Assembly (NCBI GenBank): GCA_019120615.1
Contig: DWUT01000166.1
Span: 1-34,562 of the forward strand
Reading direction: 5' to 3'
Source: Candidatus Mediterraneibacter norfolkensis
GTDB taxonomy: Bacteria; Bacillota; Clostridia; Lachnospirales; Lachnospiraceae
Length of the DNA stretch: 34,562 bases
Positions 7,271 to 18,478 of the stretch are shown piece after piece. Each line of letters opens with the position of its first letter. The first letter of the stretch is position 1. Under the pieces are notes generated by a model. That model was not told the origin of the DNA. It saw only the letters and a list, made by a program, of their open reading frames with translations, and ran no database searches. Both the position numbers and the translations under genes were made by a program.

Positions 7271-8146
7271 ATGCATGATATCTGGAATCCCTGGCACGGG
7301 TGCAGAAAATGCTCCGAGGGGTGTGAAAACTGTTATATGTATTTTCTGGATCGGATGAGGGATCAGGATGGAAACCGGATCTATCGGACAAAGGGCGGCT
7401 TCCGATATCCTTTATCCAAAGACCGGCAGGGAAGGTATAAGGTGAAGAGCGGAGAAATGATCCGGGTGTGTATGACCTCGGATTTTTTTCTTGAGGAGTC
7501 GGACGTCTGGCGGGACGAGGCGTGGGCGGTGATGCGCCAGAGGAGGGACGTGAAATTCTTTCTCCTCACAAAGCGGCCGGAGCGGGTCGCTTCCTGCCTG
7601 CCCTATGACTGGGGAGAAGGCTGGGATCATATCTTTTTTAATGTGACATGCGAAAACCAGAGAAGAGCGGATGAGCGGATCCCGCTCCTGTTTGAACTTC
7701 CGTTCCGGCATAAGGGGATCATGACAGCGCCGTTGATCGGACCGGTGAATCTTGAGAAATATCTTACCGAGGGACAGATCGAGCAGGTGCTCTGCGGCGG
7801 GGAGAACTATGACGGCTCCCGTCCGTGCCGGTATGAGTGGGTGAAACTCTTAAGCGACCAGTGCCGGGCATATGACGTCACCTTTGACTTTATCGAGACA
7901 GGCACATATTTTGTGAAAGACAAAAAGACATACCGGATCCCTGACAAGCGGACCCAGTCCGTCCAGGCGTATCGCTCCGGACTGAGCTTTCAGGGAAAAG
8001 AGATCCGGTTTCATCTGACGGATGAATGGGGATATGACATTCCGGAAGAGGAACTTTATGTTCCCCATTATCATCCGGTCACATGCAGGGAGTGCGGGAG
8101 CCGTCTGACCTGCAACGGATGCTCGGATTGTGGGAAGTGCGGCTGA
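7271..8146 (+). CDS. DUF5131 (phage Gp37/Gp68-like) protein, radical-SAM-like
   Basis: A 291-aa protein beginning MHDIWNPWHGCRKCSEGCENC; the four cysteines 11, 14, 18 and 21 form the clustered CxxCxxxCxxC of the DUF5131 family, which is related to radical SAM enzymes and could bind an iron-sulfur cluster. Further family blocks are FFLLTKRPERV, NVTCENQRRADERIP and GGENYDGSRPCRYEWV. The tail CRECGSRLTCNGCSDCGKCG is a second cysteine-rich knob, possibly a zinc ribbon. GGGAAGGGAG lies upstream of the ATG. It follows the DUF4143 gene by 24 bp but probably belonged with the broken PPDK-N gene before that insertion. The reaction is unknown. Confidence 0.85.
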   Translation: MHDIWNPWHGCRKCSEGCENCYMYFLDRMRDQDGNRIYRTKGGFRYPLSKDRQGRYKVKSGEMIRVCMTSDFFLEESDVWRDEAWAVMRQRRDVKFFLLTKRPERVASCLPYDWGEGWDHIFFNVTCENQRRADERIPLLFELPFRHKGIMTAPLIGPVNLEKYLTEGQIEQVLCGGENYDGSRPCRYEWVKLLSDQCRAYDVTFDFIETGTYFVKDKKTYRIPDKRTQSVQAYRSGLSFQGKEIRFHLTDEWGYDIPEEELYVPHYHPVTCRECGSRLTCNGCSDCGKCG

Positions 8147-8195
8147 CCGGCAGGGGCATCTGCAGGGCAGAAGTGGGACTGACCGGAAAAAATTA

Positions 8196-8224
8196 TTGAT
8201 TGTGTACGAATATGGTGATAGGCT
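8196..8224 (+). promoter_or_regulatory. Possible azlCD promoter
   Basis: TTGATT (8196-8201) and TAGGCT (8219-8224) are spaced by 17 bp in the gap before azlC. The -10 box is weak. Confidence 0.35.
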
Positions 8225-8252
8225 AGTAAAGAAGAAAATTGAGAGGAAGGAG

Positions 8253-8279
8253 AGGAGCGGACTTTACGAGTCCGCTCCT
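8253..8279 (+). promoter_or_regulatory. Perfect 11-bp hairpin just before the azlC ribosome site
   Basis: AGGAGCGGACT pairs exactly with AGTCCGCTCCT around the loop TTACG, ending 6 bp before the AGAGGA ribosome site. There is no T-run, so it is more likely an mRNA leader or stability element than a terminator. The left arm contains AGGAG, a Shine-Dalgarno-like sequence held in the stem. Confidence 0.5.
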
Positions 8280-8294
8280 GTACAGAGGAAAAAC

Positions 8295-9050
8295 ATGCAG
8301 TCAGAGTCAACCGCTTTACAGTCTGAACAGGCTGTTACAAAATCCAGAATACTGAAAAAGGCGTTTAAGGCGGCCTTTCCCTATACTATACCGATCTTTG
8401 CGGGATTCTGGTTTCTTGGTATTACATACGGGATCTATATGAATGTATCCGGGTTCAGTTTCCTGTATCCGATGCTCATGAGCATTACAATCTTTGCCGG
8501 ATCCATAGAATTTGTCACCGTCAATATGCTTCTCGGGGCCTTTGACCCTCTGCAGGCGTTTGCCATGACGCTGATGATCAATGCGAGGCATCTGTTTTAC
8601 GGGATCTCCATGCTGGATAAGTTCCGGGGGATGGGGTGGAAGAAATTTTATCTGATCTTCGGAATGTGTGATGAGACATTTTCCATCAATTATACCGCGG
8701 ATATCCCGGAGGATGTGGACCGGGGATGGTTCATGTTCTTCGTTACCCTTTTGAACCACCTGTACTGGTTCTCCGGCGCCACGCTTGGAGGGATCTTCGG
8801 CTCCCTGATCAGTTTCAGCACAGAGGGCCTTGAGTTTGTCATGGTCGCCATGTTCGTGGTGATCTTCCTGGAGCAGTGGCTCAAGGAAAAAGATCATACG
8901 AGTTCACTGCTGGGGCTGGGGATTTCCCTGCTCTGCCTGACCGCTTTCGGGGCGGACAGTTTTATCATTCCGGCAATGCTGGCGATCCTTGCGGTCCTGA
9001 CGCTGATAAGGCGTCCGCTTGAGAAGAGAGAAGGAGGAGAAGTACAATGA
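8295..9050 (+). CDS. azlC: AzlC-family branched-chain amino acid exporter, large subunit
   Basis: A 251-aa membrane protein of the AzlC family, which with AzlD exports branched-chain amino acids or analogues. The start at 8295 follows AGAGGA by 5-6 nt; a longer frame upstream has no support. Family blocks include [33 protein letters not shown] and [15 protein letters not shown]. Several hydrophobic helices follow, with a charged break at the [11 protein letters not shown] loop. The stop overlaps the azlD start by 4 nt (ATGA), a coupled pair. Confidence 0.95.
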
Positions 9051-9373
9051 CACTGACACAACAGATCATCACAGTCGCAATGGTAGTGCTGGGGACGGCG
9101 GTCACCCGGTTCCTGCCCTTTCTGGTCTTCCCGTCCGGAAAACCGACGCCGAAGTATGTGCAGTTCCTTGGGAAGTTCCTTCCTGCCGCGGTGTTCGGAC
9201 TCCTTGTCATCTACAGCCTGAAGGATGTGAACGTTTTCTCGGGAAGCCACGGGATCCCGGAGATGATCTCGATCCTTCTGGTCATCGCGCTGCACGTGTG
9301 GAAGCGGCAGATGCTTTTGTCTATCGCGGGGGGAACAGTGTGCTATATGCTGCTGGTGCAGTTCGTATTTTAA
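9047..9373 (+). CDS. azlD: AzlD-family branched-chain amino acid exporter, small subunit
   Basis: A 108-aa protein with about four transmembrane helices, the usual size for Azl[10 protein letters not shown] near the N-terminus and [19 protein letters not shown] in the middle are characteristic. It partners AzlC in the membrane exporter. It is coupled to azlC by ATGA overlap and has GGAGGAG just upstream of the start. No terminator follows immediately; the next 230 bp hold the promoter and hairpins of the ATP-grasp operon. Confidence 0.95.
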
Positions 9374-9429: not shown

Positions 9430-9458
9430 TTGACAATCGGCGGAAAATCATTTATATT
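9430..9458 (+). promoter_or_regulatory. Strong promoter of the ATP-grasp operon
   Basis: A consensus -35 TTGACA (9430-9435) and TATATT (9453-9458) with a 17-bp spacer. It is the best sigma-70 promoter in the window. The expected start near 9465 lies just before the first leader hairpin. Confidence 0.8.
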
Positions 9459-9470
9459 AACAGGCATAGC

Positions 9471-9505
9471 AAGGGCGCTTGATCATCGGGTCAGGTGCCC
9501 TTTTT
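9471..9505 (+). terminator. Leader terminator/attenuator 1
   Basis: AAGGGCGCTTGA pairs with TCAGGTGCCCTT (two G-U pairs) around an 8-nt loop, followed by TTTTT. It starts only a few bases after the predicted transcription start, so it either ends a ~40-nt RNA or controls entry into the operon. Confidence 0.65.
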
Positions 9506-9537
9506 ACATAGATCAGGTATGAAAATAAGAAGGAAAC

Positions 9538-9575
9538 AAAGGCGTTTCTCTGCAGAGGGCAGAAGAAGCGCCTTT
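9538..9575 (+). terminator. Leader hairpin 2 before the ATP-grasp gene
   Basis: AAAGGCGTTTCT pairs with AGAAGCGCCTTT (one G-U pair) over a 14-nt loop, ending ~14 bp before the AGGAGGG ribosome site. The tail ATTCAGTTTT is a weak T-tract. With hairpin 1 it makes a two-step structured leader. Confidence 0.5.
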
Positions 9576-9604
9576 ATTCAGTTTTACAGGAGGGAAGCGA
9601 TCAT

Positions 9605-10927
9605 ATGAGAGAACTGATTGAACACACGGAGGGGATCAACCGGCTGATGGCGCGCTACGGCGTCAAATTCGGGATTTATAAAGGCGGTGAGTTCCACGAG
9701 CAGCTTTTCCCCTTTGACGCGATTCCCAGGGTCATCACCCACGAGGAGTTTCAGCAGCTTGAAAAAGGGCTGATCCAGCGGGTGGACGCCCTGAACCTGT
9801 TCCTGAATGATATATACGGAGAAAAGAAGATCATACATGACGGCGTGATACCCGAGGAGTTCGTGTTTATCTCATCCGGTTATCTGCCACAGTGCGAGGG
9901 GATCACGCCGCCGAAGAACATATACAGCCACATCTCGGGCATCGACCTGGTGCTGGGGAAGGATGGGGAATGGTATATCCTTGAGGATAACCTGAGGATC
10001 CCATCGGGAGCCTCCTATCCCATGATTGCCAGGGAAATCTGCAGGAGAGTCTCCCCGGCCACCTTCGGAAATAATTCTGTGGTGGACAACAGGAATTACG
10101 CTGCCATGCTGAAAGAGACGCTGGACTGGGTGAACACGGGAGGCATCCCGGTGATCATGACGCCCGGGCGCTATAACGCGGCATACTTCGAACACTCCTA
10201 TCTGGCGGAGAGGACGGGCAGCGAACTTGCCACCTGCACGGACCTGTTCGTCGAGGATAACTATCTGTACTACCGGGATTACCGGGACCGGAAACAGAAG
10301 GTTGGCGTGATCTACCGGAGGATTTCAGACGACTATCTGGATCCGATGACGTTCCTTCCGGAGTCGCTGATCGGCATCCCGAATATCATGGACGTGTACC
10401 GCAGCGGCAATGTGGCGATCGTGAATGCGCCCGGCAACGGTGTGGCGGACGACAAGGGAATCTACTATTTTGTGCCGAAGATGATCCAGTACTATCTGGA
10501 TCAGGAGCCGATCCTGAAAAACGCGCCCACCTATCTGCCCTTCTACGAGGAAGACCGGAAGTATGTGCTGGATAACCTGGAAAAGCTGGTCATCAAGGAT
10601 GTGGCGGAGGCAGGCGGCTATGGTGTGATCTTCGGAAATGAGCTGAGCAGGGAAAAACTGGCGGAGATGAAGCAGATCATTGAGAAAGAGTCCCGCCGTT
10701 TTATCGCGCAGGAGGTCATCGACTTTCAGGATATGGAGGTCATGGACGGAGAAGAAAAGGTACTGCGCAAGGCAGATCTGAGGGTGTTTGTCCTCTCGGG
10801 AGAGAAGACGAGGGTATGGCCCAGCGGGCTGACAAGATTTTCAAGAAATGCGGACTCGTTTGTAGTCAACTCATCACAGGGAGGAGGATTTAAGGACACA
10901 TGGGTGTTATCTCAATGGAAAAAGTAG
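9605..10927 (+). CDS. Circularly permuted ATP-grasp ligase-like protein
   Basis: A 440-aa protein of the circularly permuted ATP-grasp family, which comparative genomics links to amide-bond formation on peptides or small molecules alongside alpha-E and transglutaminase proteins. Hallmark blocks are FPFDAIPRVI (35-44), RVDALNLFLNDIYGE, LEDNLRIPSG (126-135), GVIYRRISDDYLDPMTF, NAPGNGVADDKGIYYFVPKM and, at the end, SSQGGGFKDTWVL. All core blocks are present, so the enzyme is probably active. The N-terminus is some 25-40 residues shorter than many homologs, but the AGGAGGG upstream supports this start. It is the first gene of a five-gene operon, and its end overlaps the alpha-E gene by 28 nt. Confidence 0.93.
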   Translation: MRELIEHTEGINRLMARYGVKFGIYKGGEFHEQLFPFDAIPRVITHEEFQQLEKGLIQRVDALNLFLNDIYGEKKIIHDGVIPEEFVFISSGYLPQCEGITPPKNIYSHISGIDLVLGKDGEWYILEDNLRIPSGASYPMIAREICRRVSPATFGNNSVVDNRNYAAMLKETLDWVNTGGIPVIMTPGRYNAAYFEHSYLAERTGSELATCTDLFVEDNYLYYRDYRDRKQKVGVIYRRISDDYLDPMTFLPESLIGIPNIMDVYRSGNVAIVNAPGNGVADDKGIYYFVPKMIQYYLDQEPILKNAPTYLPFYEEDRKYVLDNLEKLVIKDVAEAGGYGVIFGNELSREKLAEMKQIIEKESRRFIAQEVIDFQDMEVMDGEEKVLRKADLRVFVLSGEKTRVWPSGLTRFSRNADSFVVNSSQGGGFKDTWVLSQWKK

Positions 10928-11574
10928 ACCATCTGTACTGGCTGGGACGCTATACAGAGAGGGTGTATACAACGCTGCGTATGTTTTTTCATATCTACGA
11001 TAAAATGATCGAGCAGCCGGAGGGGATTTATGCAAAATACTGTGAGAGGCTGAATATTCCGGACATTTATACTTCAAACCGGCAGTTTGTAAGGTCTTAT
11101 CTATTCGGTGAGGACAACCCGGATTCTGTATATTCCAATATGAAACGGGCATACGATAACGCAGTGGTGCTCCGGGACGAACTGAGCACCACAGTCCTGT
11201 CCTATGTGCAGCTTGCCCTGGATACATTTGAGTCCTGTGGGAAGACGACGGCGCCGCTTCTGGAGCTGCAGCAGGTGATCGATTATCTGCTGGCTTTCTG
11301 GGGCGGGGCGGACGACTACGTGGAACAGGAGGACTGCCGGAACATCCTGAAGTGCGGAAAATATGTGGAGAGACTGGATCTGTGTATCCGGCTGGATTAC
11401 CACACGAAGTATCTGGAGAAAGAGTACAGGAAACTGTGCAACCGGCTGGAAAAGACAAACCTGAGTTATAACAGGAAGAATCTGGAACGCCTGGAGGAGA
11501 TCATCCTTAAGGAAGATGATCCGAAGTCCTGTTACCGGGAAGCTCTGGGGTGTCTTGGGGGACTTTTTACATAG
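10900..11574 (+). CDS. Alpha-E domain protein, partner of ATP-grasp
   Basis: A 224-aa largely helical protein. The opening VDHLYWLGRYTERV is the diagnostic alpha-E start (usually LYWLGRYxERAE), and RDELSTTVLSYVQLALD and GGADDYVEQED fit the rest. Alpha-E proteins nearly always accompany the circularly permuted ATP-grasp and may hold the substrate or form the ligase complex. Usual length is around 300 aa, so this is a short version. The start at 10900 has AAGG 5 nt upstream and overlaps the ligase gene by 28 nt; a second in-frame ATG lies at 10915. The last third is rich in Lys and Glu. Confidence 0.9.
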   Translation: MGVISMEKVDHLYWLGRYTERVYTTLRMFFHIYDKMIEQPEGIYAKYCERLNIPDIYTSNRQFVRSYLFGEDNPDSVYSNMKRAYDNAVVLRDELSTTVLSYVQLALDTFESCGKTTAPLLELQQVIDYLLAFWGGADDYVEQEDCRNILKCGKYVERLDLCIRLDYHTKYLEKEYRKLCNRLEKTNLSYNRKNLERLEEIILKEDDPKSCYREALGCLGGLFT

Positions 11575-11640
11575 GATGCTATATAAAAATATATGGATAA
11601 GCTGAGAAACTCAATGCCATAGGAAAGCCGAGGCTTATAG

Positions 11641-12471
11641 ATGAGAAAACTGAAATTTGAGTACAGTATGGAACTGAAGTTTTCGTCTCCGGTGAGCAGC
11701 CATTATTTTGCACTGCGCTGCGTCCCCGGGGACTCTTTGCGGCAGAAGGTGCGGCTGACGGAGTGCCGGGTCAGTCCGGCGGACTATACAAGCGCGCTGG
11801 AGGACGGATTCGGGAACCTGAAACTCAGCGGATGCTGTCAGGCGCCCCATGATGTGTTTGGCTACAGCGTCGCGGGGACAGCCGGGACGAAGGGGATGAT
11901 CGTGCAGAAATGCCCGCTCCATCCCATGTACCGTTATCCTTCAAAGTATACGCGGTTTGAACCGGAAGTGGTCCGTTTCGCGGAGAAGATCAGAGAGGAG
12001 TGCGGGAGGGAGTCTGCCGGGACTGTCCTTGAGAAAGCGGTCTGTGCCATGCATTACCTGCATAAATATTTTGAATATGTGTCGGGGATGACGGATATCG
12101 GGACAACGGCGGCCGGAGCGCTTAAGCTGGGGAAAGGAGTGTGCCAGGACTATGCCCACATCATGATCGCCGTGATGCGGTATCTGGGGATTCCGGCGCG
12201 GTATGTGAACGGTCTTATGATCGGGGAGGGGGCGACCCACGCATGGGTGGAGGTGTACACGGACGGCGGCTGGTACGGGCTTGATCCGACCAATGACCTG
12301 CATATCGATGAATATTATATCAGCCTTGCTCATGGGCGGGACTACGGGGACTGTATTGTGGACAGGGGGATTTTTCTGGGAAATACATCTCAGGAGCAGA
12401 AAATTTATGTAAATGTGGAGGAGATCAAAGATGGTAGAGACAGTTGTGTCAATGGAACTGCCGGTGGATGA
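11641..12471 (+). CDS. Transglutaminase-like cysteine peptidase
   Basis: A 276-aa protein with an N-terminal beta domain (KFSSPVSSHYFALRCVPGDS) of bacterial transglutaminase proteins and a papain-like core. The triad is visible: Cys168 in GKGVCQDYAHIMIAVMRYLG, His200 in ATHAWVEV and Asp215 in GLDPTND. Most bacterial members hydrolyse peptide or isopeptide bonds. No signal peptide is present, so it acts in the cytoplasm on material made there. It sits 66 bp after the alpha-E gene, and the GAGG before its start lies in a small AAGCC-GA-GGCTT hairpin. Its end overlaps the next gene by 41 nt. Confidence 0.93.
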   Translation: MRKLKFEYSMELKFSSPVSSHYFALRCVPGDSLRQKVRLTECRVSPADYTSALEDGFGNLKLSGCCQAPHDVFGYSVAGTAGTKGMIVQKCPLHPMYRYPSKYTRFEPEVVRFAEKIREECGRESAGTVLEKAVCAMHYLHKYFEYVSGMTDIGTTAAGALKLGKGVCQDYAHIMIAVMRYLGIPARYVNGLMIGEGATHAWVEVYTDGGWYGLDPTNDLHIDEYYISLAHGRDYGDCIVDRGIFLGNTSQEQKIYVNVEEIKDGRDSCVNGTAGG

Positions 12472-13384
12472 AAAACTGACGATCCGGAAGAACCGGATCA
12501 TGCCCATGCATCCAACCGGGGAGGAAAAGAGGATCGCGATCGTGACGGGGACTCACGGAGATGAGCTGGAAGGGCAGTTTGTCTGCTATGAGCTGCTCCG
12601 CAGACTGAAGGCGGAGCCGGGGTATCTGAAAGGGATCGTGGACGTCTATCCGGCGCTGAACCCGCTGGGGATCGATTCGATCACAAGAGGGATTCCCATG
12701 TTTGATCTGGATATGAACCGGATCTTTCCGGGAAATGATGAGGGACCGATGATGGAGTCCCTGGTTTACAGACTGACGGAAGACCTGAAGGGAGCGGATC
12801 TGTGCGTGGATATCCACGCCAGCAACATTTTCCTCATGGAGCTTCCTCAGGTCAGGATCAATGAGCTTACGGCAAAGGAACTGGTCCCTTTGGGTAAGAA
12901 GATCAATGTGGACTTTGTGTGGGTCCATGCATCGTCCACGGTGCTTGAATCCACTCTGGCTTACAGCCTGAACAGCGTCGGGACGCCCACTCTCGTGGTG
13001 GAGATGGGAGTCGGCATGCGGATCACGAAGGCATATGGCTATCAGCTTGTGGAGGGAATCCTGAATGTAATGAAAGAGATGGGAGTCTGGGAAGGGGCTG
13101 TCGGACGGGTCAGGACGCCTGTTGTATCCACGGACCGCGAGGTGGGATATCTCAATGCGGACAGCGCCGGGATCTATGTGCCGAAGGCAAAGATCGGGGA
13201 TCATGTAAAAGAGGGAGATCTTCTGGGAGAGATTCTGAACCCGCTGACCGGAGACGTGGAGCAGGCAGTGACCGCTCCTATTCCGGGCATGGTGTTTACC
13301 AGGAGAGAGTATCCGATAGTCTACAGCGGCTCGCTTCTGGGACGGATCCTGGGAAGCAGAGAGGAAGGAGAGGCCGAATCATGA
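12431..13384 (+). CDS. M14-family AstE/AspA-like deacylase or carboxypeptidase
   Basis: A 317-aa zinc hydrolase of the succinylglutamate desuccinylase/aspartoacylase branch of M14. Zinc ligands are His42 and Glu45 (GTHGDELEG) and His129 (VDIHAS); the catalytic base is probably Glu191 (LVVEMGVG). DMNRIFPG (94-101) is the conserved substrate-side loop. The C-terminal ~90 residues (GIYVPKAKIGDHVKEGDLLG) form a barrel-sandwich domain like biotinyl domains, usual in this branch. The start at 12431 has GGAGGAG 7 nt upstream, better than the ATG at 12413. It overlaps the transglutaminase gene by 41 nt and the next gene by 4 nt. It would remove an acyl or amino-acid cap from an amidated product. Confidence 0.93.
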   Translation: MVETVVSMELPVDEKLTIRKNRIMPMHPTGEEKRIAIVTGTHGDELEGQFVCYELLRRLKAEPGYLKGIVDVYPALNPLGIDSITRGIPMFDLDMNRIFPGNDEGPMMESLVYRLTEDLKGADLCVDIHASNIFLMELPQVRINELTAKELVPLGKKINVDFVWVHASSTVLESTLAYSLNSVGTPTLVVEMGVGMRITKAYGYQLVEGILNVMKEMGVWEGAVGRVRTPVVSTDREVGYLNADSAGIYVPKAKIGDHVKEGDLLGEILNPLTGDVEQAVTAPIPGMVFTRREYPIVYSGSLLGRILGSREEGEAES

Positions 13385-14316
13385 GAAAGACAACAGTTTA
13401 TACAATGGGGTCCCCGTACCGGGAGAAACTTACTGTCAGCGGATATTCCTTCGGACACGGAAGAAAAGCTGCCTGTATCGTCGGGAGCATCCGGGGAAAT
13501 GAGGTGCAGCAGCTTTACGTCTGCTCACAGATCATAAGGAAGCTGGAAGAACTGGAGGCGTCCCATTCTATCGTGTCGGATAGGGAGATCCTCGTGATTC
13601 CCTCCGTGAACCATCACGCCATGAATATCGGGAAACGGTTCTGGCCGGTGGACAATACTGACATCAACCGGATGTTCCCCGGGTATGATCAGGGAGAGAC
13701 GACCCAGAGGATCGCGGCAGGTGTGTTTGAGGCGGTAAAGGACTACGATTATGGCATACAGTTTGCAAGCTTCTACATGCCCGGTGATTTTATTCCTCAT
13801 GTCCGTATGATGGACACGGGAAGACAGAACACCAGTCTTGCCTGCCTGTTCGGACTGCCTTACGTAGTGGTGCGCAGACCGAAACCGATCGATACGACTA
13901 CGCTGAATTATAACTGGCAGATCTGGGATACCAATGCCTTTTCCGTATATACGACGGAAACAGATTTTATCGACGAGGTGTCCGCACGCCAGGCAGTGGC
14001 GGCGGTGCTCCGTTTTCTGACCCGCATGGGAATCCTGAAATATAACAGCCATAACGGCTACATCTCCACTGTGATCGAAGAGGAAGAACTGGCGTCTGTG
14101 AGGACTGCTGCAGGAGGAATCTACAGGAGGCTGTGCCGCCCCGGGGACGAGGTGCAGATGGGGACGCCTCTCGCCGAGATCGTCCATCCTTACGAGGGGA
14201 ATGTGATCTCCACGGTACTCTCTCCCACAGAGGGAATCGTGTTCTTTACGCATAAAAAGCCGCTGGCAACGGAGAATGAGGTGGTATGCAAGATCATTCG
14301 CAGGCTGCATGGATGA
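13381..14316 (+). CDS. M14 AstE/AspA-like paralog lacking zinc histidines (probable pseudoenzyme)
   Basis: A 311-aa homolog of the preceding gene with the same overall plan: DINRMFPGYDQG (94-105) and a C-terminal barrel-sandwich domain (GGIYRRLCRPGDEVQMGTPL). The zinc site is changed: the GxHGxE motif reads GSIRGNE, so His is replaced by Arg38 while Glu41 stays, and the DxH strand reads YDYGIQFAS with no histidine. A glutamate at the catalytic position (Glu193, VYTTET) may remain. Loss of both histidines suggests it cannot bind zinc as usual and serves as a regulatory or substrate-binding partner of the active copy, with which it is coupled by an ATGA overlap. Alignment is by eye. Confidence 0.88.
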   Translation: MRKTTVYTMGSPYREKLTVSGYSFGHGRKAACIVGSIRGNEVQQLYVCSQIIRKLEELEASHSIVSDREILVIPSVNHHAMNIGKRFWPVDNTDINRMFPGYDQGETTQRIAAGVFEAVKDYDYGIQFASFYMPGDFIPHVRMMDTGRQNTSLACLFGLPYVVVRRPKPIDTTTLNYNWQIWDTNAFSVYTTETDFIDEVSARQAVAAVLRFLTRMGILKYNSHNGYISTVIEEEELASVRTAAGGIYRRLCRPGDEVQMGTPLAEIVHPYEGNVISTVLSPTEGIVFFTHKKPLATENEVVCKIIRRLHG

Positions 14317-14454: not shown

Positions 14455-14574
14455 ATGGATGCATTGGGATTTGTACTCTTTATACTGGCGTGCGGAGGCA
14501 TAGTCGTATTGATGTTCCTGCGCGGCAGGGCTTGGAAGGATTTTACGGACAGCGTGACGGATAAGAAAGAGTAA
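14455..14574 (+). CDS. Small single-pass membrane protein, 39 aa
   Basis: A strong GGGAGGTGAG stands 5-7 nt before the ATG. The peptide is one hydrophobic helix, LGFVLFILACGGIVVLMFL, followed by a positive stop-transfer (RGRAWK) and a charged tail ending in DKKE. It has its own extended -10 promoter and a strong terminator, so it looks like a real gene rather than a chance frame. No known family is recognised. It follows the M14 pair by 138 bp and may or may not serve the same system. Confidence 0.75.
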   Translation: MDALGFVLFILACGGIVVLMFLRGRAWKDFTDSVTDKKE

Positions 14575-15174: not shown

Positions 15175-15387
15175 AAAAAATCCTCCTTTAATAATGAATA
15201 AACAAGCAACTGAAATCCGTGTTGTTCGTTAATCATTCAGGAGAATGGACGTTTCCAATATAGACCGGGATTTTCTCAACGGGCACGATTCTATCATATA
15301 TGTTCAGGCAATGTCAAGACTTTCTTAACAGGATTCTCCTCTGGAAATTTTCATGGAAATGTGCTATATATTTATTTTGTATTATTT

Positions 15388-15417
15388 TTGGAACTACAGA
15401 CAGACTGTATTTATACA
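15388..15417 (+). promoter_or_regulatory. Dehydratase operon promoter with internal dyad
   Basis: TTGGAA (15388-15393) and TATACA (15412-15417) are 18 bp apart. The spacer holds the dyad TACAG-ACAGA-CTGTA (15395-15409), a possible operator. The rest of the 269-bp gap (15175-15443) is AT-rich with no further gene seen. Confidence 0.5.
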
Positions 15418-15443
15418 TCAATGTGAGATCTGGAGGGAATAAA

Positions 15444-16760
15444 ATGTGGATCGCAGATAAATATATCGATCATGTAAAAGAAGAGACCACGGAGCATCCC
15501 GGAGAGAGCTGGGATCAGATGCTCCTCGGATTCAAACTGAACAAGCTCCGGACGAAGCTGCTCCCGAAAAAAGGGATATCAAAAGGCTACCAGAAGCTGG
15601 AGGCGATGATGATGTCCTTTGTGGCGGATTCTCTCGGCCGCCCGGACAGCTATGTGTGGGGCAATATCTTTTCACCCTGTGAGATCATAGGATGTTTCGG
15701 ACTGAGCACACTTTCGATCGAGTGTCTTTCCTGCTACTTCACCGGATATCATCTGGAAGATTTTTTTATAGACTATGCACAGAATACGGGGATCGCGCCG
15801 ACACTGTGTTCCTATCATAAGACCTTTGTGGGAGCGATTGACAGCGGGGCGGTGCCTGTGCCGGAGTATGCCGTGACGACTTCGCTTTCCTGTGACGGAA
15901 ACCTGAACACGTTCCGATATCTGGAAAAGAAGAAGGGCGTCCCGTTCACGTTCCTGGACGTGCCGTACCGTGACGATGAGGCGTCGGTGGATTATCTGGC
16001 GGAACAGTTGAAGGATTTCGCCTCGGAGCTGGAGAAACGCTTCGGAACAACCTTTGACGAGGAAAAACTGAAAAAAGCGATACGGATCGAGAATGAGACA
16101 AGAAGGGAACTGCTCCGGTTCTTTGAACTTCAGAGCGAGCGGTACTATCCGGGCGAGCTGATCAGCCATCTCTATATGATGATGGGGATGCATCTGCTCA
16201 TCGGGACACAGGAGTTCCTGGATCTGATCCGGTTCATGATAAAGGATATCGAGAACTATCCGAAGTTTGACGGGAAGAAAATTCTGTGGATCCATCTGCT
16301 CCCGTTCTATCAGGAGACACTGCAGAGCTATTTCAACGACAGCCGTAAGTACCAGATCATTGCAAGTGATATTATCATTGACTCTATGGAAGAAATGGAT
16401 GAGACAAAGCCGTTCCACGCCCTGGCAAAGAAGATCATCCGGAATCTGTATAATGGTTCCTATTCGCACAGGGCAGATATGGTCGGAAAGCTGGCAGACC
16501 GGCTCCATCCGGACGCAGTGATCCAGTTCTGCCACTGGGGATGCAAGCAGTCTTCAGGGGGAAGTATCCTTCTGAAAGAGAAACTGAAGGAAATGGATGT
16601 CCCCATGCTGATCCTGGACGGAGACGGAATCGACCGGCGCAACAGCCATGACGGACAGATCAAGACCAGGCTGGAAGCATTCCTGGAGATGCTGGAAACA
16701 GGTGACGCAGAAGAGACAGAGAATGAAGAGACAGCAGAGAGGGAACAGAGGATATGTTAG
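15444..16760 (+). CDS. 2-hydroxyacyl-CoA dehydratase subunit (HgdB/FldC-like)
   Basis: A 438-aa protein of the 2-hydroxyacyl-CoA dehydratase family, which removes water from 2-hydroxyacyl-CoA in amino-acid fermentation using a [4Fe-4S] cluster and an ATP-driven electron from an activator. Candidate cluster cysteines lie in FSPCEIIGCFG, TTSLSCDGN and FCHWGCKQSSGG, the last a typical C-terminal block. GGAGGG stands 6 nt before 15444; the frame extends to 15300 but without a ribosome site. Its end overlaps the fusion gene by 7 nt. The acidic tail (DAEETENEETAERE) is unusual. The substrate cannot be told; no CoA-transferase or 2-hydroxyacid dehydrogenase is beside it. Confidence 0.88.
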   Translation: MWIADKYIDHVKEETTEHPGESWDQMLLGFKLNKLRTKLLPKKGISKGYQKLEAMMMSFVADSLGRPDSYVWGNIFSPCEIIGCFGLSTLSIECLSCYFTGYHLEDFFIDYAQNTGIAPTLCSYHKTFVGAIDSGAVPVPEYAVTTSLSCDGNLNTFRYLEKKKGVPFTFLDVPYRDDEASVDYLAEQLKDFASELEKRFGTTFDEEKLKKAIRIENETRRELLRFFELQSERYYPGELISHLYMMMGMHLLIGTQEFLDLIRFMIKDIENYPKFDGKKILWIHLLPFYQETLQSYFNDSRKYQIIASDIIIDSMEEMDETKPFHALAKKIIRNLYNGSYSHRADMVGKLADRLHPDAVIQFCHWGCKQSSGGSILLKEKLKEMDVPMLILDGDGIDRRNSHDGQIKTRLEAFLEMLETGDAEETENEETAEREQRIC

Positions 16761-18478
16761 GTTATATATGTAAATATGCTCCGGTGGAAGTTTTTGAGTC
16801 CATGGGGGTGAAAATGGAGAGGATCGAGCCGGATGTGACCAACTTTAACCAGGCAGAGATCCGGATGCATCCGAATATCTGCAGTTTTGCAAAAGGGGTG
16901 CTGGAGGAAGTTATGAGAGGTGAGTATGAAGGAGTGATCCTGACCACCTGCTGCGACAGCATCCGAAGGCTTTACGATGTGCTCAGGGAAGAGTTCCCGG
17001 ACAAATTTATCTATATGCTGGACACACCGCGGATCACAAAGGACGCGGGGATCACCCTTTATGAACAGCGCATCCGGGCGATGATCCGGGAGTATGAGGA
17101 GTTTTCGGGAAAGACATTTGACGAGAATGAATTCTGCGGATTCCTGAAAGGAAAAGAGGAAGAACAGCAGTATGCCGTCAAGAGCAATTATGTCAATATC
17201 GGCATCATCGGCGCAAGGGCCAACGAGAGCATCAAGAAGATCCTGGCGGAAAACGGAGCCAATGTAGCCTTTGACCTGACCTGTACCGGTCTGGGGAGAA
17301 AGATCCTGGTGGAAGAGGAAAATGTCCTGAACGGATATGCCAGAGGACTGCTGAGTCAGTTCCCGTGTATGCGCATGGAGCAGGCGGCGAACAGGGATGA
17401 ACTGATCAAAAGGAGCGCGGGAAGTGTGGACGGTATTATCTATCACACGGTACAGTTCTGTGATAATTATGCCTATGAGTATGCCTGGCTGAAGGGCTGG
17501 CTTGACAGACCGCTGCTCCTGCTTGAGACAGACTATACCAGACAGAGCGGCGGACAGGTGAGGACCAGGATCGAGGCGTTTCTGGAGTCGCTGTCATCAG
17601 GACGGGACAGCGCACAGGGGACTGGAACAGGAAGCAGGACAGGCAGAGCGGGAAGACTGCAGGATGCTGCAGAGAGATGGAAGAAGGGAGACGGACCAAT
17701 GTATGTGATGGGAATCGACAGTGGATCCACATCGACCAATGCGGTCATCATGGATCAGGACAGAAAGATAAAGGCGTTCTCTGTGGTACGCACCGGAGCG
17801 AAGTCCGGTGTCAGCGCGGAACGGGCATTAAAGGACGTGCTTGAGAAGGCAGGGCTTACCAGGGAGGATATCTCCTGGATCGTGTCCACCGGCTACGGTC
17901 GCGTCAGCATTGAGTTTGCCGATGAGAACGTGACGGAGATCAGCTGTCATGGTAAGGGAGCACACTATTTCAATCCGAAGATCCGGACGATCCTGGATAT
18001 CGGAGGACAGGACAGCAAGGCGATCCGTCTGAATGAAAACGGAGAGGTGAAGGACTTCGTCATGAACGACAAGTGTGCTGCCGGGACGGGACGGTTTCTG
18101 GAGATGATCGCCCGCACGCTGGAAGTCTCCCTGGACGAGCTGGGCGCCATCGCGCTGACTTCTCAGGAGAAGATCGAGATCACAAGCATGTGCTCTGTCT
18201 TTGCCGAGTCCGAGGTGATCTCTCTGATCGCGAACAACAAGGAAAAAGCGGATATCGCGGACGGCGTCTGCCACGCGATCGCCAACAAGGCTTCCGGCCT
18301 GCTGCGCCGGGGAGGCATGGAGCCGGAGTTCATGATGACCGGCGGTGTGGCGAAGAACCCCGGAGTTGTGCGCGCCGTGGAAGAGAAGATCGGTTCAAAG
18401 CTCTATATCTGTGATGAACCGGAAATCGTCGGAGCCGCCGGGGCGGCGGTGTACGCGCTGGAGAAATGCGGAGTTTGA
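16754..18478 (+). CDS. Fused 2-hydroxyacyl-CoA dehydratase subunit and dehydratase activase
   Basis: A 574-aa fusion. Residues 1-~285 are a second dehydratase subunit (FAKGVLEE, TTCCDSIRRLYD, FCDNYAYEY, LETDYTRQSGGQVRTRIEAF). A Gly/Ser/Arg-rich linker (~286-312) leads to an acyl-CoA dehydratase activase from residue 316: MYVMGIDSGSTSTNAVIMD is the ASKHA ATP-binding start, DIGGQDSKAI follows, and Cys441 (NDKCAAGTGRF) and Cys480 (TSMCSVFAE) match the two cysteines that hold the bridging [4Fe-4S] cluster in HgdC-type activators. Activators are usually separate ~260-aa proteins. AAGGGAG before the internal ATG (17699) could also allow a free activase to be made. ATP hydrolysis in this half would power electron transfer to the dehydratase half. 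Confidence 0.9.
   Translation: MLGYICKYAPVEVFESMGVKMERIEPDVTNFNQAEIRMHPNICSFAKGVLEEVMRGEYEGVILTTCCDSIRRLYDVLREEFPDKFIYMLDTPRITKDAGITLYEQRIRAMIREYEEFSGKTFDENEFCGFLKGKEEEQQYAVKSNYVNIGIIGARANESIKKILAENGANVAFDLTCTGLGRKILVEEENVLNGYARGLLSQFPCMRMEQAANRDELIKRSAGSVDGIIYHTVQFCDNYAYEYAWLKGWLDRPLLLLETDYTRQSGGQVRTRIEAFLESLSSGRDSAQGTGTGSRTGRAGRLQDAAERWKKGDGPMYVMGIDSGSTSTNAVIMDQDRKIKAFSVVRTGAKSGVSAERALKDVLEKAGLTREDISWIVSTGYGRVSIEFADENVTEISCHGKGAHYFNPKIRTILDIGGQDSKAIRLNENGEVKDFVMNDKCAAGTGRFLEMIARTLEVSLDELGAIALTSQEKIEITSMCSVFAESEVISLIANNKEKADIADGVCHAIANKASGLLRRGGMEPEFMMTGGVAKNPGVVRAVEEKIGSKLYICDEPEIVGAAGAAVYALEKCGV

Follow-up and report, generated by a model that had tools for sequence, protein, structure and literature searches.

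A conserved five-gene operon of Lachnospiraceae with an M14 enzyme–pseudoenzyme pair and a leader hairpin resembling those before nitrogen genes

What does a bacterium gain from keeping a predicted amide ligase next to two predicted amide hydrolases and an inactive relative of one of them? This question is raised by a contig of Candidatus Mediterraneibacter norfolkensis (DWUT01000166.1; the whole stretch of 34,562 nucleotides that was analysed is called the window here), in which five genes, named A to E, occupy positions 9605–14316 of the forward strand as one operon, with overlaps between A/B, C/D and D/E and otherwise one short gap. A reading made from the letters alone had ascribed the locus to a capped peptide-like metabolite. 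Our analysis suggests that the leader of the operon groups it with nitrogen assimilation and that the operon is most likely induced in nitrogen shortage. Gene calls are our own open reading frames (ORFs), many of the genomes compared are draft or metagenome assemblies, and related rows in the alignments are not independent.

Gene A (9605–10927, 440 residues) encodes a predicted circularly permuted ATP-grasp amide ligase, matching Pfam CP_ATPgrasp_2 (PF14403, E-value 6e-138) and PF04174; its best match in the Protein Data Bank is 3n6x, a solved protein to which it is close. Gene B (10900–11574) encodes a short alpha-E protein of 224 residues (Alpha-E, PF04168, E-value 2e-20) in which the ER motif is conserved. 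Gene C (11641–12471) encodes a transglutaminase-fold thiol protein (Transglut_core, PF01841, E-value 2e-22; PF08379). Its Cys168 and His200 are each found in 37/37 aligned rows and Asp215 in 36/37, which bears out the intact Cys-His-Asp triad noticed earlier. Gene D (12431–13384) encodes a predicted M14 deacylase of the AstE/AspA type (AstE_AspA_cat, E-value 1e-22) with a zinc site H41/E44/H128, a catalytic E190 and an N95–R96 pair; its start is placed at the Met at 12431, the ORF itself opens at 12413, and residues are numbered from the Val after that Met. Gene E (13381–14316) encodes an M14 pseudoenzyme (same Pfam model, E-value 2e-11) carrying R38, A129 and Y190 at the lost catalytic sites. 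Against NCBIfam models, all five proteins stay below cut-off.

Is the arrangement more than chance? In a family search of 299 genomes, one per genus, E was matched in 77 genomes, 65 of them strongly, and A in 46, with a nearly complete match in 34. A, D and E follow in this order on one contig in 31 of the 34 genomes with near-full A, as judged from match coordinates and reading of the stretches (G091:C52 and G211:C185 by coordinates only). The exceptions are G136, where a contig end cuts through the locus (L078, L129), G174, where A-B-C run to the edge of their contig while D-E lie elsewhere, and G329, which has A-B-C with no D-E within 7.6 kb. A class search of 291 genomes gave seven matches for A, five of them from other families, of which four carry all five genes and the fifth (L144) meets a contig end within D. 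A phylum search of 398 genomes gave six matches for E at 1e-30; the full set is present in a further family (L233), and a divergent yet complete set in family f148 (L234, L235, L257–L259). Thus the set is rare beyond its own family, and its gene order is kept there. Since the order is conserved in many genera and in other families, A to E are confirmed as one conserved operon. The five-gene operon of the sequence-only reading is thereby upheld by Pfam matches and by conserved order, and in Lachnospiraceae genomes with a near-full A the five genes are not rare neighbours.

Closer to the window, a search of 61 genomes (its own, 36 of the genus and 24 of the order) matched E in nine: the own genome, six relatives with a full E at 89–92%, and two species with remnants comprising its last 29 or 40 residues, in which the operon is deleted between azlCD and a 39-residue ORF. 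In the distant family of L144, alpha-E and transglutaminase are fused in one protein (L144:6486–8024), a piece of natural evidence suggesting that B and C act together.

The two M14 proteins differ sharply in their active sites. The positions of the zinc ligands (two His, one Glu) and of the catalytic Glu are those that we take to be equivalent in AspA and AstE. The zinc site of D, predicted earlier to be intact, is kept in 40/40 rows linked to A-B-C. In E, where its loss had likewise been noticed, the zinc ligands and catalytic Glu are replaced by R38, A/T129 and Y190 in nearly all rows; the fold is retained, and so is the Asn-Arg pair, without a metal site. In E about 25 residues are near-invariant, among them R14, N40, E41, Q43, Q44, W88, D91, D94, N96, R97, Q127, S130, H140, R142, D171, T174–Q180 and S188; the alignment with D suggests that they line a pocket. 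The ratio of nonsynonymous to synonymous substitution rates (dN/dS), computed pairwise within the genus for six relatives at dS values of 0.7–1.7, which is near saturation, is 0.03–0.05 for E in five of the six (E of L088 yielded no dS). The corresponding values are 0.035–0.066 for D (rows L049 and L052 were not used as they matched the paralogue E), 0.02–0.04 for A, 0.04–0.08 for B and 0.13–0.21 for C. These ratios indicate that E is under strong purifying selection. The pair clearly exemplifies a pseudoenzyme that is conserved next to an active paralogue. The E sequences of family f148 all have the zinc-ligand motifs (5/5), and the catalytic Glu position is occupied by Met-Leu in 3/5, our search expression finding no match in the other two; this form may represent a possible intermediate state in which the ligands are present and the catalytic Glu is replaced. 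One different M14 protein (L122) was dropped from alignment A4.

AlphaFold models of both proteins are confident, with a predicted local distance difference test (pLDDT) score of 89.5 for D and 91.0 for E, and their nearest structures are 3cdx, 2qj8, DoeB and CphZ. The nearest solved relatives of D serve nitrogen salvage by cleaving off acyl caps or by splitting isopeptide bonds. As the folds of D and E are close to CphZ (8ein/8eip), and M14 enzymes take part in cyanophycin degradation according to the available part of PMC10206079, one could suppose that the operon turns over a cyanophycin-type nitrogen storage polymer with D as a CphZ-like dipeptide hydrolase. DoeB-type structures outrank CphZ for D, though, and no cyanophycin synthetase above cut-off was found in any of 20 genomes (15 with A, 5 with stand-alone D-E), for which reason cyanophycin turnover was rejected as very improbable.

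D stands directly before E nearly always, also where the rest of the operon is missing. D-E occur without A-B-C in 29 loci with at least 3 kb of upstream sequence in view, and 29 of the 65 genomes with a strong E have neither a near-full A nor one of the listed damaged copies; among these 29, B and C are visible at a contig edge in G189, A is reduced to scraps in G154 and G313, and some loci break off where the contig stops. The doubt whether the M14 genes usually stand elsewhere is therefore half justified: where A is near-full they are linked to it, and in other genomes the D-E pair leads a separate existence. A scrap of A or B lies upstream of two D-E pairs (L054, L050), which suggests that A-B-C have been lost in some lines. 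Comparing rows outside and inside A-B-C loci, with six same-genus rows omitted, H41 of D is lost in 8/29 versus 0/34 and R96 in 12/29 versus 0/34. On the tree the A-B-C label changes only twice, and per branch length the losses give P values of 0.023 (H41) and 0.049 (R96); the greater loss of active-site residues outside A-B-C loci is for these reasons only suggestive.

Other observations concern E and the surroundings of the pair. Fusions extend the C end of E by a methyltransferase domain in L146:5669–7204 and by DUF3877 in L209:8001–9503. A purL-like cluster is present in 27 of 80 stretches (Pfam was run on one), and linkage to purL was considered as a hint to function; it is probably a matter of chromosomal position, because some A-B-C loci (L170, L175, L178) also have purL about 1.7–3 kb downstream.

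What controls the operon? Upstream of A, at 9430–9604, lies a leader that is absent from the sequence-only reading. A promoter scan places TTGACA-17-TATATT (11 of 12) at 9430–9458 of the forward strand, followed on the same strand by two hairpins. The first, a promoter-proximal terminator hairpin at 9468–9507, can alternatively form at its 5′ end a mini-hairpin (9468–9479) with the hexaloop AAGGGC. The second, a terminator-like hairpin with a short T-run at 9532–9577, can form from its 5′ arm a mini-hairpin of six base pairs (9532–9549) with the hexaloop AAAGGC. Both window hairpins thus show a hexaloop with A at position 1 and G at position 4 overlapping the terminator, which is the signature described for targets of ANTAR proteins in the consulted part of PMC3369931. 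An Rfam scan of the window gave nothing reaching the gathering score.

A terminator hairpin is present in 39/45 A leaders, with a promoter before it in 26/45. For covariation, 20 of 42 hairpins were selected for even length; in this set 99.6% of cells pair with strong covariation, and both alternative helices covary. The first bases of these 20 hairpins (RRC AARGRC GYY) can form the mutually exclusive mini-hairpin; 10 of the 20 have A-U as the middle pair of this structure and the other 10 have G-C. When terminators were located without using the hexaloop signature, the hexaloop hairpin was found on the 5′ arm of 38/54 A-leader terminators (30/45 leaders) versus 10/137 from other intergenic DNA (P 3e-18, an optimistic value because the set includes close relatives). 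Loops with another first base or without G4 occur in only 0–4 of the 54. A separate count of 38/42 with the signature is not independent, the search expression having already required the loop G, and an exact pattern search was too strict, missing the window's own hairpins. The leader hairpins might be ordinary terminators of upstream genes, with a merely generic likeness to nitrogen leaders, as A-/T-tract terminators are common and our first count found one upstream of 36/127 other genes; the same count gave 22/28 for A genes, and the excess of hexaloops over control terminators, the promoters preceding the hairpins and the genome-wide matches described below, which with the hexaloop fall largely at nitrogen genes, make such an origin hardly credible. 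The pattern suggests that the operon may be under ANTAR control exerted through a single hairpin.

A link to other genes was sought with model R1, built from the 20 hairpins and searched in the window's genome (G000) and in G020, G007 and G325. It gave 53 matches up to an E-value of 5, of which the 25 below 0.03 were examined; the first window hairpin belongs to the training set, and the second, outside it, matches at 0.02. The hexaloop hairpin is present in 20 of the 25: six A leaders (three from the training set), two unassigned, and 12 before nitrogen or amino-acid genes. These 12 precede glnA (three genomes), GSIII (two), gltB, PII, a GlnQ-like ATPase gene, amino-acid binding-protein genes (three hairpins, two genomes) and a HisC-type aminotransferase gene, the genes being named by Pfam or NCBIfam (L276 and L277 by reading). 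Five of the 25 lack the hexaloop: L277 precedes a Liv-type binding protein gene and L280 a rhamnulokinase-like gene (both by reading), and the remaining three resemble ordinary terminators. A weaker match, L290 (E-value 0.77), precedes carA. The two unassigned hexaloop terminator elements, L281 and L285 (G007, G000), have good promoters, with HIT-like and HydF-like genes (by reading) on the other strand; they perhaps encode a small RNA. A candidate regulator is at hand, as an ANTAR gene directly follows a glutamine synthetase gene in 9/9 Lachnospiraceae-type loci (L295–L303; by reading, with Pfam on one); in G880 and G933 it does not follow a glutamine synthetase gene.

The first three genes have a known counterpart. 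In published Anbu operons, genes for an ATP-grasp protein, an alpha-E protein and a transglutaminase precede Anbu, and nitrogen limitation is reported to raise Anbu in Pseudomonas putida, according to the portions of PMC6376114 and PMC5666114 that were available. A proteasome-fold search matched none of 20 genomes with A, and 10 of 14 control genomes were positive; in 12 more genomes it gave matches in nine, eight of them above cut-off and all HslV by NCBIfam, the ninth, in G495, being left unassigned (19.8 bits, below cut-off). Anbu was thus seen in 0/32 genomes, of which G1085 is known for D-E only and G091 for A, D and E only, and on this ground the M14 pair appears to hold the place of Anbu in the operon. 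The reading that we favour, with moderate confidence, is that the operon is the Clostridia/Bacillota version of the Anbu operon, with the M14 pair in place of Anbu, and that it is expressed under nitrogen limitation.

The same likeness in core genes and order lends itself to a role in protein tagging, in which A and B would attach a peptide or amino-acid tag to proteins and C and D would remove it, nitrogen starvation raising the turnover of tagged proteins. Tagging has been put forward for Anbu operons in the consulted part of PMC6376114, and nitrogen control would suit protein turnover. Since Anbu was not found, the operon has no unfoldase, and the closest structural matches of D have small amino-acid amides as substrates, we regard tagging as unlikely.

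For the Anbu-like operon expressed under nitrogen limitation, a course of events can be proposed. In nitrogen shortage, the ANTAR protein encoded beside glnA would bind the hexaloop hairpin and block the terminator, so that A to E are transcribed. A, aided by B, would spend ATP to link a carboxylate with an amine. C, by its thiol, and D, by its zinc, would hydrolyse amide bonds of the product of A or of an intermediate, so that the amino acid or amine set free would re-enter the glutamate pool. E might bind the same ligand and, in contact with D, serve as its partner or sensor. The likely purpose would be the use or recycling of an amine or amino-acid conjugate as a nitrogen source. AstE, DoeB and CphZ act comparably in known routes. 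Such a nitrogen-salvage amide cycle is favoured because the leader is of the nitrogen type, Anbu is raised in nitrogen-poor P. putida, A is predicted to make and C and D to break amides, and the relatives of D fit. The fullest form of this proposal is put forward tentatively as a possibility: in an amide cycle of nitrogen starvation, A would make a conjugate, D would cleave it and the metal-free E would be its receptor, the cycle being governed by a new one-hairpin class of ANTAR antiterminator that sits at the 5′ end of the transcript and is shared with glnA, gltB and PII.

Several observations weigh against this reading. As assembled, three of the six genus relatives have a broken gene: A falls into two frames in L086 and L089, and C is interrupted in L087; further loci are broken, with damaged copies in G184, G303, G079 and G097. 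Such interruptions suggest that the set is dispensable. D-E persist without A-B-C and without the leader element, which is found in only 1/29 stand-alone D leaders, so the pair would need a use of its own. E stands without an assigned D in the fetched stretches of L118, L206, L208, L218 and L226; at the last four, where genes that we take to be NYN-type and YbaK-type lie beside it, E may serve a separate purpose. In the leaders, 15/45 lack the hexaloop element, six of these lack any terminator, and the genus nearest to that of the window (L046) is among the 15. The canonical second ANTAR hairpin (P1, upstream) was found in 3/38 cases, against 3.7 expected by chance. The ANTAR search returned one gene in each of 11/12 genomes and none in 14 control genomes, i.e. 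it has no positive control, and the window's own genome, where the glnA contig ends 67 bases past glnA, yielded no ANTAR gene. Finally, the proteins of the Anbu operon are reported without change of expression under various conditions in the accessible part of PMC5666114.

The neighbourhood of the operon bears on its earlier interpretation. A ligase, a thiol peptidase and a deacylase together in one operon might well make, trim (by D) and recycle a capped peptide-like secondary metabolite, as the sequence-only reading proposed. No carrier, transporter or precursor gene is prominent among the clustered neighbour genes, the leader element is common to primary nitrogen genes, and the known relative of the operon is that of Anbu; a secreted metabolite of this kind is left unsupported and appears improbable. 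The 39-residue membrane ORF (14455–14574), once considered as a carrier, occurs in some members of the genus whether or not the operon is there. As it persists in the two operon-deleted species, and several intact copies of the operon have no such ORF within 1.5 kb, it was rejected as a member of the set. Directly upstream of the operon lie azlC and azlD (8130–9370), retained in the same two species. At 15300–18478 a 2-hydroxyglutaryl-CoA dehydratase D-component gene (Pfam) is followed by what we take to be an activator-fusion-like gene.

When the Anbu structures appeared, the hypotheses on the ATP-grasp/alpha-E/transglutaminase core were experimentally unconfirmed, according to the part of PMC6376114 consulted. 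The shared RNA element would tie this long-unexplained core to glutamine and glutamate synthesis in gut bacteria. Because the element is of the same kind as that of nitrogen genes, the role becomes testable: it suggests a growth condition to try, together with a regulator and substrates as candidates. Among the papers listed by our literature searches, no ATP-grasp/alpha-E/M14 operon and no one-hairpin ANTAR element was found; an earlier mention of the M14 pair in Iyer et al. 2009 is possible.

Set against known systems, the window operon shares its first three families and their order with the Anbu operon, whose Anbu has a reported nitrogen link, and differs in having an M14 AstE/AspA pair where Anbu would stand. 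Its alpha-E protein has 224 residues, compared with 307–324 in the f148 type. D has the fold of DoeB/EutE, the N-acetyl-diaminobutyrate deacetylase (6twl, 6twm; template modelling score 0.81), at only about 20% identity and 60 bits against a DoeB cut-off of 402.7; with the cyanophycin dipeptide hydrolase CphZ (8ein, 8eip) it shares fold and M14 family at 16–17% identity. The leader resembles the targets of EutV, NasR and AmiR, as described in the consulted part of PMC3369931, in its A1/G4 hexaloop overlapping the 5′ arm of a terminator and in its association with nitrogen genes, and differs in having one hairpin only, without P1. Lastly, the RimB/RimK and Rlo systems of Pseudomonas likewise oppose an ATP-grasp protein to a peptidase, although their peptidases belong to other families (PMC12239564, in the part available).

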